Position numbers and translations under genes: made by a program. 21,736 nt of DNA from a virus. Where the stretch lies: positions 1-21,736 of the IMG/VR virus record IMGVR_UViG_3300027759_000478, one strand, 5' to 3'. The stretch's first letter is position 1. The number at the start of each line of letters is the position of its first letter. Under the pieces are notes generated by a model. The model was not told the DNA's origin. It searched no databases and worked only from the letters and a program-made list of their open reading frames with translations. This document shows positions 1 through 5,361 of this stretch, in pieces.

Positions 1-381
1 AATCTCATTCGGAAAGCGACAGTCTGTAATAACAATGTCATCTTTGCTAGATCTTAGACGATTTTCCAAGCTAGCTATCCACATATCGTCATGGAAGTGT
101 TTGCGTACCACCTCAGTACCCCAATATTGTAGTACCCAACGCGGTGTTACATCACAGCCTAGTCGTTTGCTCCACCATTCATCTTTGGTTTCGCGCCAGA
201 TTCTTGATTGATTAGTGCGCCCTTCAAGCAAGTCGCGTTCCCAACCAAATACCACGCTTACAGCATCTTTAAGGCTGTTAGCAAAGCTCTCGCGTTTAAA
301 TCTATGAAAGTTAACCAGATAGTCTGCAACCGTATCTTTACCTGAGCCGATAAAGCCTACGATACCGATGATAGAACTCAT
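1..381 (-). CDS. 1: Deoxynucleoside monophosphate kinase (T4 gp1-like), 5' part only
   Basis: Partial gene: 127 codons from the ATG at 381, and the reading frame runs off the left edge. The translation begins MSSIIGIVGFIGSGKDTVA, with a P-loop (GxxGxGKD, residues 8-15) for ATP binding. It ends with a DCRFPNE motif (about residues 120-126), which matches the conserved RFPNE stretch of the phage dNMP kinase family (T4 gp1, T5 dnk). In that family the enzyme phosphorylates dNMPs to dNDPs for phage DNA synthesis in the cytoplasm. T4 gp1 is about 240 aa, so roughly half is visible. An AAGGGGAT ribosome binding site lies 6 bases before the ATG. It follows the gp13-like gene on the same strand, about 60 bases downstream. 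The family call rests on the two motifs; the gene number is inferred from the T4-like context. Confidence 0.88.
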   Translation of the reverse strand, partial: MSSIIGIVGFIGSGKDTVADYLVNFHRFKRESFANSLKDAVSVVFGWERDLLEGRTNQSRIWRETKDEWWSKRLGCDVTPRWVLQYWGTEVVRKHFHDDMWIASLENRLRSSKDDIVITDCRFPNEI

Positions 382-1636: not shown

Positions 1637-1641
1637 TTAAA

Positions 1642-1681
1642 TTATCCTGTTATAGTGTATTTATTATCTACAACAGGATAA
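1642..1681 (-). promoter_or_regulatory. SD-sequestering hairpin in front of gp13-like gene
   Basis: A perfect 10-bp inverted repeat is present: TTATCCTGTT at 1642-1651 and AACAGGATAA at 1672-1681, with a 20-base loop. In a minus-strand transcript the 3' arm contains the AGGAT ribosome binding site of the gp13-like gene. A transcript arriving from the upstream 397-aa gene would therefore hide that site. The loop contains the late box at 1658-1665, and its predicted start near 1652 omits the 5' arm and leaves the site free. T4 uses this logic for genes such as e (lysozyme), soc and 49. The structure is seen in the sequence; the regulation is inferred. Confidence 0.7.
1658..1665 (-). promoter_or_regulatory. 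T4-type late promoter (AATAAATA) for gp13-like gene
   Basis: The box AATAAATA on the minus strand differs from the T4 late consensus TATAAATA only at the first base. It lies 21 bases before the ATG, giving a predicted leader of about 16 bases. The geometry matches the other late boxes in the window (leaders of 14-16 bases for three of them). Confidence 0.65.
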
Positions 1682-1707
1682 CTTTGCCTTTCGCTACCTT
1701 GAGGGGA

Positions 1708-2901
1708 TTAGATTACTTTGAGTAGGATGGTATCAGCGTTGATACGTCCATTAAGTTTGATTTCTGTAGTTTTGATATTTTCTAAGAACTTACGTAGTTC
1801 TACTTTATTGCTGGCTAGGAATGCTTTGACCTGTTCTTCGGGTTTGCGTAGAGTTTTTTGTGTGCTCTTGCTTTCATTAAAGCCCGTGATGGTTGTACCT
1901 TTAACACCTAATACACCGCCTTGATCTTCTGCTACATAGCGACCTAGTTTACGATTTTTAACATTATAAACCCATAGCTGTTCTGCGCCAACGATGTCCA
2001 CTGGATTAATCGATACCAGCTTCATTCCAGCATCTTGTTTAAGATATTTCAAACTCTTAACTAGTTTTTCTTTGGCTGGTGGTTTACGGACTGCGGCTTT
2101 TTTAGTTGCTTTCTTAGTTTGATTATAGGCCGTCAAATCAGCAAATAGTTTGTCATAGAAAGCATCATAACGTTTATAGTCAGCGGCTTTCATATAGCTG
2201 TATGCATCTTTAAGATCTTCATCTTTGGTCGTTCTTGCTTCACGCACTTCTGCACAGCGTGGTTCAAACACTGCCTGGATTTTATTAATCAGTACTTGTG
2301 GTACGTTGTTCTTAGTTAAATACTCATAGGCCTTAGGATCTATTGTTTCGCCTGTATATAAAGCATCTTCAAGCATTTCAAAATAAAGAATATGCTTCCT
2401 GGCTACTTCGTTCATACGGTCTTGGATCGTTGGAATATAGACTTGTGTTTTCTTTACTTCTGGCTTTTCTTCAAAATCTTCGTCATTGTCTGCTTTAAGC
2501 AATAGCACACGCTGAACCGCATCAAGGATATATTCTACATGGCGGTCACGTAAAGGCATACCTCGTTCATGTGCTTTGATCAGTGCGCAGACTGTAAATG
2601 GTGTAAGGCTGTCGGCTGACCGTTGATAACGATCAATAGTAGTTTTATCTAGTTTATGTAACCCTTCGCTACCTTCATGTTGACGTAGCCAGGCCACTAC
2701 ATATTTTTTAAGATCTTTGGTGCTATAATAATAATTGTAGTAACGAAAACTTTGGCGTAGGTGATGGTCAAATTCCTCATTTGAAAAAGCCAAGGCGCGA
2801 TCATAATCCCAAATAGGTTCATTGCCTGTATATTTTTCGTCAGCGAAATTATTACTGCTAACTTTTGCTTTCTTTTTCATGCCATCAATCTTGATTGCCA
2901 T
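1708..2901 (-). CDS. Conserved phage protein of unknown function, 397 aa, early-type promoter
   Basis: I do not recognise a named family. The protein is charged and soluble-looking, with no signal peptide or membrane segment. The N-terminus is basic (residues 1-14, several Lys). The region 28-140 is largely helical and rich in Tyr/Arg, followed by an acidic patch at 138-147. A Lys/Ala-rich linker at about 263-289 separates the helical part from a C-terminal domain (290-397) that contains a V-N-R-K-L-G-R-Y-type stretch and an LRKPEEQ segment. The linker and basic tail would fit nucleic-acid binding, but that is only a guess. The ATG is preceded by GAGAGGAT, and a consensus sigma-70 promoter lies about 24 bases upstream, so early expression is likely. 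It lies just upstream of the gp13-like gene on the same strand and read-through is possible. Confidence 0.85.
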   Translation of the reverse strand: MAIKIDGMKKKAKVSSNNFADEKYTGNEPIWDYDRALAFSNEEFDHHLRQSFRYYNYYYSTKDLKKYVVAWLRQHEGSEGLHKLDKTTIDRYQRSADSLTPFTVCALIKAHERGMPLRDRHVEYILDAVQRVLLLKADNDEDFEEKPEVKKTQVYIPTIQDRMNEVARKHILYFEMLEDALYTGETIDPKAYEYLTKNNVPQVLINKIQAVFEPRCAEVREARTTKDEDLKDAYSYMKAADYKRYDAFYDKLFADLTAYNQTKKATKKAAVRKPPAKEKLVKSLKYLKQDAGMKLVSINPVDIVGAEQLWVYNVKNRKLGRYVAEDQGGVLGVKGTTITGFNESKSTQKTLRKPEEQVKAFLASNKVELRKFLENIKTTEIKLNGRINADTILLKVI

Positions 2902-2924: not shown

Positions 2925-2952
2925 ATTATACAGGATTTGTTTTGCTTGTCAA
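2925..2952 (-). promoter_or_regulatory. Consensus sigma-70 promoter for the 397-aa gene
   Basis: Minus strand: -35 TTGACA at 2947-2952 and -10 TATAAT at 2925-2930, both perfect, with a 16-base spacer. The predicted start is near 2918, giving a leader of about 17 bases with a good ribosome site. The -35 box lies immediately after the stop codon of the upstream small gene. Confidence 0.85.
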
Positions 2953-3887: not shown

Positions 3888-3916
3888 ACTATAACACATT
3901 TTGGCTAGCTTGTCAA
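3888..3916 (-). promoter_or_regulatory. Sigma-70 promoter for the 88-aa gene, likely leaderless
   Basis: Minus strand: TTGACA at 3911-3916, a 17-base spacer, and TATAGT at 3888-3893 (one mismatch). The -10 box ends only 5 bases before the ATG at 3882, so initiation 6-7 bases downstream would fall on the start codon. A second TATAGT copy at 3883-3888 would need a 22-base spacer and is less likely. Confidence 0.75.
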
Positions 3917-3920
3917 TGTC

Positions 3921-3928
3921 GATAAATA
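3921..3928 (+). promoter_or_regulatory. T4-type late promoter (GATAAATA) for gp14-like/gp15-like/Nudix unit
   Basis: Plus-strand GATAAATA differs from TATAAATA only at the first base. The predicted start is near 3934, 15 bases before the ATG at 3949, with an AGGAT ribosome site in between. It lies only 4 bases from the -35 box of the opposing sigma-70 promoter, so early and late transcription diverge from one compact region. Confidence 0.75.
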
Positions 3929-3948
3929 CTAGATAATAGGATTAGCTA

Positions 3949-5361
3949 ATGCCACGTCTAAGTTTATATCGTCCAGAAAAGGGCAATGACTACAAGTTCT
4001 TTGATCGACGTATCAGTGAAATGTTTACCATAGGTGGAGTTGATGTCCATATCCACAAATATCTTGGGCCGTTAACACAGGGTAATGTCAGCATGACTGA
4101 ACCTGGTGGTGCTACTACTCTACTAGGAATCCAAGACTTACTATTCTTAGAAAATCGTGATCGCAAGTATGACACCAGTGTCTATACCATGCGAACTATA
4201 TACCGCTTAAATGACAACGATTTTGATCTAACGCAGTTTGGATTATTCTTAACTGGTGATACCATGTTTGCTGTGTTCCATTTAAATGACATGATCGACA
4301 CAGTTGGTCGTAAGATCATAGTAGGTGATGTCATGGAACTACCAAATTTAAAAGACTACTATCCGTTAGATGACAGTGTCCCAACAGCTCTTAAACGTTA
4401 TTATGTAGTGCAAGACGCTACCCGTGCCGCAGAAGGATTTGCACCTACTTGGTATCCGCACCTATGGCGTGTTAAACTACAACCATTGGTGGACAGCCAA
4501 GAATACAAAGATATCATTAATACTCTTGATGCTGGCGAGAATACTGATAGTTCAATAGCAGAGGTTCTAAGCACTTACCAAAAATACATTGATATCAATG
4601 ACGCTATTGTTAGCCGTGCAGAACAAGATGTTCCAGCCAGTGGTTATGATACCAGTGCGATCTATACTGAGCCGGTTAATCCGGACGGCACACCCGGTGA
4701 CCCGGGTGGTTTAGATGCCAGCCAGGTCAGTGATGATGCCAGCGATGTCAATGATGATGCGAGTTCAGCCACACTGACGGCAGCCAAGAAAGTAGAAGGA
4801 TATCTGACTGGAGATGGCCTACCACCAAATGGCGCCGCAGTTGCCGCTGGTATCGCTTTCCCAAATTCTCCAGGAGTGGGAGATTTCTATTTACGTTTAG
4901 ACTATGTGCCTAATAGACTGTTCCGTTATGATGGACGTCGTTGGGTCAAGATAGAGGATGCAGTGAGAACTAACCTAACACCTGGTTCGACCAATACTAC
5001 ACAATTAAGTGGGTTCGTTAATGACACTAACAAGTTTATGAGCAACAGCGTTGCTTGGGACGCTATACGTATCAGCAGTGGTGCATATACACCTGCGGCC
5101 AATGCTTGGACATTATCATTTAATGTTACCACAGGTAATATAGTTGTTAAAGTTCCATACGTCAGTGGTTATGGCGCCAAGACCTATATCAACAGTATCA
5201 AAGTCAACAACACCATCAGTAACTCAAGTGGCAACATTGGCATACACGTGGCCAATACCTATGTCAATGGTGACCTATTAGAATACACAGTTTACGAACA
5301 CGTGATCAACGAACGTCAGAGCTTATCACAAGCCTTGCGTCCTTCAGCGGATAACATATAA
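3949..5361 (+). CDS. 14: gp14-like neck protein, extended, 470 aa
   Basis: Probable partner of gp13 in the neck, or head-to-tail connector completion protein. The N-terminal part (residues 1-190) has the layout I associate with gp14 of marine T4-like phages: an early VDVHIHKYLG strand, a DLLFLENRDRKYD segment (63-75), a central strand region with FGLFLTGDTMFAVF (97-110), an IVGDVMELPN motif (124-133), and a YYVVQDATRA...WYPHLWRVKL stretch (151-177). The C-terminal half is not expected from T4 gp14 (256 aa). It has a Pro/Gly/Asp-rich linker (about 242-275), a W-R-type motif region LRLDYVPNRLFRYDGRRW (315-332) seen in other phage virion proteins, and a final strand region ending in HVINERQSLSQALRPS. 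Its stop overlaps the gp15-like ATG (TAATG). The call rests on gene order plus pattern, so it is less certain than gp15. Confidence 0.62.
   Translation: MPRLSLYRPEKGNDYKFFDRRISEMFTIGGVDVHIHKYLGPLTQGNVSMTEPGGATTLLGIQDLLFLENRDRKYDTSVYTMRTIYRLNDNDFDLTQFGLFLTGDTMFAVFHLNDMIDTVGRKIIVGDVMELPNLKDYYPLDDSVPTALKRYYVVQDATRAAEGFAPTWYPHLWRVKLQPLVDSQEYKDIINTLDAGENTDSSIAEVLSTYQKYIDINDAIVSRAEQDVPASGYDTSAIYTEPVNPDGTPGDPGGLDASQVSDDASDVNDDASSATLTAAKKVEGYLTGDGLPPNGAAVAAGIAFPNSPGVGDFYLRLDYVPNRLFRYDGRRWVKIEDAVRTNLTPGSTNTTQLSGFVNDTNKFMSNSVAWDAIRISSGAYTPAANAWTLSFNVTTGNIVVKVPYVSGYGAKTYINSIKVNNTISNSSGNIGIHVANTYVNGDLLEYTVYEHVINERQSLSQALRPSADNI

Follow-up and report, generated by a model that had tools for sequence, protein, structure and literature searches.

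The window, meaning the whole stretch of DNA that was analysed, is an IMG/VR record of 21,736 bases and is itself a fragment with no larger assembly behind it. Three minus-strand genes follow one another in the region of interest: a gene of PHROG_11903, a family with no assigned function, a gene for a head-tail adaptor and the 5' part of a dNMP kinase gene (Table 1). The window shares with jumbo phages the gene order gp13, dNMP kinase, sheath. The middle gene had been called a gp13-like neck gene from its letters and the name holds, as PHROG_211 places it in the gp13/Ad2 family and T4 gp13 matches the same PHROG. The length of gp13 is 397 aa in the clade of the window versus about 305 aa in many relatives, and the ~90 extra residues, which lie in the C-terminal half, look like a domain insertion. 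The gap between the PHROG_11903 gene and gp13 is 71 bases long and contains the hairpin that is the subject of this work.

Table 1. Positions of genes and leader elements in the window (minus-strand features throughout).
Feature	Position	Strand	Evidence
dNMP kinase, 5' part of gene	1..381	-	PHROG match
gp13-like head-tail adaptor (Ad2, neck protein), 397 aa	443..1636	-	PHROG_211 match, E 1e-23
Hairpin 3' arm, holds Shine-Dalgarno	1639..1655	-	repeat search, folding, covariation
Shine-Dalgarno AGGA; base-paired in read-through RNA, unpaired in late RNA	1645..1648	-	opening energies
Hairpin loop, 12 nt	1667-1656	-	folding
Late promoter box AATAAATA, inside the 12-nt loop; predicted +1 near 1652	1658..1665	-	motif position, conservation
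Hairpin 5' arm AAGTTATCCTGTTGTAG, present in read-through RNA only, upstream of predicted late start	1668..1684	-	repeat search, folding, covariation
Leader element CCCCTCAAGGTAGCG just past upstream stop	1692..1706	-	conserved in close relatives
Co-directional gene upstream of gp13, PHROG_11903 (no assigned function)	1708..2901	-	PHROG match
Consensus sigma70 (early) promoter TTGACA-16-TATAAT, 12/12	2925..2952	-	promoter scan; relatives

The sequence-only reading had described a perfect 10-bp inverted repeat around a 20-base loop with a late box, and the repeat is exactly as described: on the minus strand, TTATCCTGTT (1681-1672) and AACAGGATAA (1651-1642) are separated by 20 bases that include AATAAATA. 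This repeat is the core of a larger structure. The stem grows inward by GUAG/CUAU, with one G·U pair, and also outward, and the full stem pairs 1684-1668 with 1655-1639 over 17 bp, two of them G·U, so that the size first given for stem and loop had to be revised. The base of the stem is A-U rich. The ribosome binding site lies in the downstream arm, as had been claimed, and AGGA is separated from the ATG (1636-1634) by 8 nt. RNA from 1690 to 1620 folds with -23.9 kcal/mol (z = -6.3), a stability reached by none of 200 dinucleotide shuffles. Among the short-range inverted repeats of the window, the hairpin ranks second, the first being 73% complementary. No Rfam covariance model matched 1637-1710 at E values of up to 1, and a riboswitch or other Rfam element at the leader was discarded as a candidate; a SAM_alpha hit at 2081-2154 lies in coding sequence and is under the gathering score.

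The late box itself was assessed by its position and not by its count. With at most one mismatch, TATAAATA is seen 47 times in the window for 50 expected, and a match to the box alone is therefore not significant and was rejected as evidence by itself. The box is credible because it occupies a fixed place about 20 nt before the ATGs of late genes and because it is invariant in relatives: NATAAATA is found ~20 bases before the ATG at 1636, 16222 and 19107, and on the plus strand at 3949, and in the alignment of close relatives the ATAAATA core does not vary and the distance from box to ATG is 21 nt in most of them. T4 late promoters consist of an 8-bp box, from -13 to -6, that precedes the start by about one turn of the helix; A is a known variant of the first base in T4, and Aeh1 has a/gC at -13/-12 (PMC2988020). 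The first bases of the box and the CTAAATA forms of the relatives agree with these variants. Counted from the box, the expected late start is at about 1652, a position within the 3' arm. A gp55-like late sigma factor (PHROG_12791) is encoded by four of five long relative contigs (E 1e-81 to 1e-85), the window being only a 21.7-kb fragment; a search for gp45 with PHROG_223 gave no match, and neither did its control. In another part of the window, the divergent region at 3888-3949, a near-consensus sigma70 promoter (3916-3888, minus strand) overlaps or adjoins a GATAAATA late box (3921-3928, plus strand), and early and late transcription may interfere there.

To compare the two RNAs that could carry gp13, the RNA was truncated stepwise from its 5' end and the cost of opening the Shine-Dalgarno sequence, or the segment from Shine-Dalgarno to AUG, was computed. 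It had been predicted that read-through RNA would fold over the ribosome site and that RNA started at the late box, devoid of the upstream arm, would be open; folding with and without the 5' arm bore out both parts. In every RNA that begins at 1690 or further upstream, the full transcript from 2918 among them, opening the Shine-Dalgarno sequence costs 13.9 kcal/mol, and opening the segment down to the AUG costs 16-18 kcal/mol, even for the full transcript. For RNA with a 5' end near 1652, the costs are 1.4 and 2.2 kcal/mol, respectively. All 5' ends from 1672 on give 1.4-1.7 kcal/mol for the Shine-Dalgarno sequence, and the switch falls exactly across the 5' arm. The same method applied to the whole start region of T4 genes gave 15.3 to 0.4/4.4 kcal/mol for e, 16.1 to 3.2 for 49, 14.9 to 2.6 for I-TevII and 8.3 to 5.5 for soc. 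As the opening energies of the window resemble those of e, 49 and I-TevII, its predicted switch is, on paper, as strong as the experimentally established T4 cases.

A read-through RNA requires transcription from upstream. The strong early promoter that had been read ahead of the PHROG_11903 gene is real as a sigma70 sequence, with all consensus positions matched. In relatives, a sigma70 match of at least 11/12 is present within 90 bases of the upstream gene in 32 of 70 cases versus 1.9% of random background; about half of the upstream genes thus have no near-perfect promoter directly ahead, and early read-through may start further upstream. In Sinorhizobium phage phiM12, a relative of PHROG_11903 is located among rnh, thioredoxin (nrdC-like) and phoH genes, a block that looks like an early/middle one. 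A terminator scan of the minus strand between the PHROG_11903 gene and gp13 found none, and a PHROG_11903 transcript, presumably made early, would run into gp13.

The hairpin could instead be an intrinsic terminator or attenuator of the early upstream transcript, from which the nested late promoter escapes and for which covering of the Shine-Dalgarno sequence is a side effect. Such a role would fit GAP32, PBECO4, XaC1, BF and ACG-2014j (L167, L168, L173, L176, L206), where at least four U follow the stem, and 16 of 44 leaders of a more distant environmental group with the same property. It does not fit the window, where the stem, A-U rich at its base, is followed by UAAUUUAAAUG with no U-tract and the scan of the minus strand detected no terminator, or the close relatives, only 1 of 33 of which has a U-run of at least four. 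Moreover, the Shine-Dalgarno sequence is in the 3' arm with or without a U-tract. An intrinsic terminator is thus rejected for the window, for want of the U-tract, and as a general explanation it is improbable. In the gp13 leaders of the five phages just named the U-tract is placed right before the start codon, and it is possible that leaders with a U-tract combine terminator, lock on the ribosome binding site and late promoter.

Relatives of the leader were collected in two scans that yielded ~140 environmental loci, some contigs being fetched twice (the contigs of L021 and L023-L025 were scored as L084, L083, L106 and L108); L152, L156, L158 and L159, in which the match starts inside the protein or the box is absent, were kept outside scoring. 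Nearly all of 91 distinct gp13 leaders have the hairpin and, nested in it, the late box; the arms, unrelated in sequence from leader to leader, match only each other. It had been suggested that the leader be compared in related contigs for compensatory changes, and these are abundant. Firstly, in 34 distinct close leaders 92.5% of the stem cells are paired and 12 double changes are counted versus 1.9 in column shuffles; this signal is clearly lost when the columns are slid by 1-3. Secondly, in more distant relatives the arms are entirely different in sequence and still pair around the box. In a swap test on 45 diverged leaders, the median was -18.9 kcal/mol with the leader's own arms versus -8.0 with swapped arms, and 0 of 20,000 permutations reached the observed sum. 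Judged from these leaders, the pairing is evidently maintained by selection, and a chance origin is ruled out by the shuffles, the alignments and the swap test.

The same comparisons bear on whether the element acts as DNA or as RNA. The inverted repeat, nearly a perfect palindrome with the late box at its centre, might be an operator to which a dimeric protein binds and covers the late promoter, and T4 I-TevI does bind over its own late promoter (PMC2988022). However, relatives pair with arms of completely different sequence, and there is therefore no common protein site. Furthermore, the stem wobbles, read in the sense RNA, number 46 G·U versus 7 A·C (counts that include related leaders and for which a p-value is indicative at most), a bias that protein binding to DNA does not predict and that speaks for RNA of the coding strand rather than for a DNA palindrome. 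On both grounds an operator is disfavoured, and we consider it highly improbable.

The pairing is also specific for its gene. The opening cost in read-through RNA minus that in late RNA has a median of 13.9 kcal/mol in the gp13 leaders from environmental contigs (n = 77) and exceeds 5 kcal/mol in 96% of them. In contrast, 82 other late-box leaders from the same contigs have a median difference of 1.7 kcal/mol, with 12% above 5 kcal/mol (p 9e-26 for 77 versus 82 rows that are not phylogenetically independent). Given these controls, the hairpin is a feature of gp13 and was rejected as something that late promoters of these phages have in general. The presence of the same box before other late genes without any hairpin also argues against a third reading, in which the hairpin serves mRNA processing or stability and a nuclease cut in the loop, not a late start, frees the Shine-Dalgarno sequence. 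In favour of such a cut, the loop is single-stranded A/U-rich RNA, and primer extension cannot separate processing from initiation (PMC2988020). But processing gives no reason for the loop being kept as a late box, with an invariant ATAAATA core at a constant 21 nt from the ATG in most close relatives, and we regard it as very unlikely.

Relatives that lose the pairing and keep the box, which the sequence-only reading had counted against its proposal, do exist, but they are few (L014, PA5oct and gp13 genes with no co-directional early gene upstream) and most relatives keep the pairing. In L014, the one close relative that lacks the nested stem, another and weaker fold covers the start codon instead (z -2.6); a search of its contig, a fragment and maybe incomplete, for a gp55-type sigma gave no match. 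Among isolated phages, the hairpin is present in the jumbo phages GAP32, CBB, XbC2, BF, XaC1, PHA46, Hallingskeid, PBECO4, SD-2_S15, RaK2 and K64-1, and in these gp13 sits behind co-directional small genes (tk.4-like and hypothetical). In cyanophage ACG-2014j, gp13 is likewise behind small hypothetical genes and has a box-containing stem and a U-tract. Phages whose gp13 comes after a divergent gene (Atu_ph07, Phosso, SCTP-2, Vibrio 2.275) lack the hairpin, as do those in which a late structural gene precedes gp13 (T4, R10Z, ACG-2014d, avDM2, AB-Navy71). Presence and absence thus track what lies upstream, in a correlation made without phylogenetic correction and between groups that are different lineages too, and from this follows a rule, open to testing, on where a phage needs a translational lock. 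PA5oct is an exception, with the gene order of the window and a late box, yet a weak hairpin (z -1.2).

We propose that the late promoter nested in the hairpin over the ribosome binding site is, very probably, a two-message timing switch for gp13. Early in infection, host RNA polymerase would start at the sigma70 promoter (2952-2925), copy the PHROG_11903 gene and continue into gp13; in this read-through RNA the two arms would pair, the Shine-Dalgarno sequence would be buried and the neck protein would not be made, a repression from which we infer that the phage benefits. Late in infection, the phage-modified polymerase with a gp55-type sigma would use the box AATAAATA in the loop and start near 1652, within the 3' arm. 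The late RNA, lacking the 5' arm, would have an open ribosome site, and gp13 and then the dNMP kinase would be translated.

In T4, the switch is a textbook one for a handful of genes, mostly lysis or mobile-endonuclease genes, for which early expression is plainly harmful. The sequence-only reading had listed e, soc and 49 as its users; all three do use the design, and the list is longer, with I-TevI/II/III, segB, 25, 26 and Aeh1 mobE. The proposed mechanism in the window is this known e/soc/49/I-TevI switch, here at a neck gene and across T4-like jumbo phages. In the e leader, one or more late promoters lie between the arms, the Shine-Dalgarno sequence is in the 3' arm, and the long early RNA is closed while the late RNA is open (PMC3014915). 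The leader of the window has the same arrangement and agreeing opening energies, whereas its sequence is unrelated and its product is a neck/connector protein and not a lysozyme, early expression of which would lyse the cell. Genes 49 and soc share the architecture, 49 with the same AATAAATA box, but are other genes, and the soc hairpin is much weaker, as the energies above indicate. I-TevI/II/III, segB and Aeh1 mobE, located within early transcription units, have a late promoter in a hairpin that hides the ribosome binding site (PMC2988022), the same nested design as in the window. Unlike these homing endonuclease genes, which are mobile and selfish, gp13 belongs to the core virion genes and keeps the device over wide divergence. 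T4 gene 13, the homologue of the window gene, follows the late gene wac and has neither a late box nor a nested hairpin.

The leader had been thought to be possibly a new instance outside classical T4. The occurrence at gp13 stands, but the window is not a lone case: the device is conserved across T4-like jumbo phages. No earlier report of the switch at gp13 or in these phage groups was found in open-licence papers, and one elsewhere is possible; the part of the CBB paper available to us gives an ATAAATA late motif and does not mention the hairpin (PMC5259590). That a core virion gene carries the switch as a fixed trait, over a wide jumbo and environmental range, shows that the design is no T4 curiosity. 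A broader history can be put forward tentatively, in which the hairpin at gp13 is old and near-obligatory in T4-like jumbo phages and related environmental phages, with arms rebuilt repeatedly and with terminator, lock on the ribosome binding site and late start merged in some lineages. If this history is true, excluding the neck protein from the early phase matters enough for selection wherever gp13 is behind early genes. The culturable carriers GAP32, CBB, RaK2 and PBECO4 allow direct testing, including of whether head-tail assembly suffers from early neck protein.

Several leaders show variations on the arrangement. In L150, L151 and L153-L155, the late box CATAAATAC itself serves as the 5' arm, its pairing partner being GTATTTATG in the start region. 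On the contig of L035 (G001), a 54-aa gene (MAKLQEEV...) at 176264 on the minus strand has a late box GCTAAATA in a hairpin of -18 kcal/mol that hides the Shine-Dalgarno sequence; its homologue in G004 has the box and no hairpin. Directly after the upstream stop, the element CCCC(C)TCAAGGTAGCG is strongly conserved among close relatives of the window (L001-L077), and in some leaders the bases right after it pair with the first gp13 codons. The element is kept despite a small ORF inserted before it in L009, L010 and probably L041, L057-L060 and L073. In L010, an insertion of ~210 bp with a small ORF (2716-2930) separates the PHROG_11903 gene from the gp13 leader and the downstream hairpin is unchanged.
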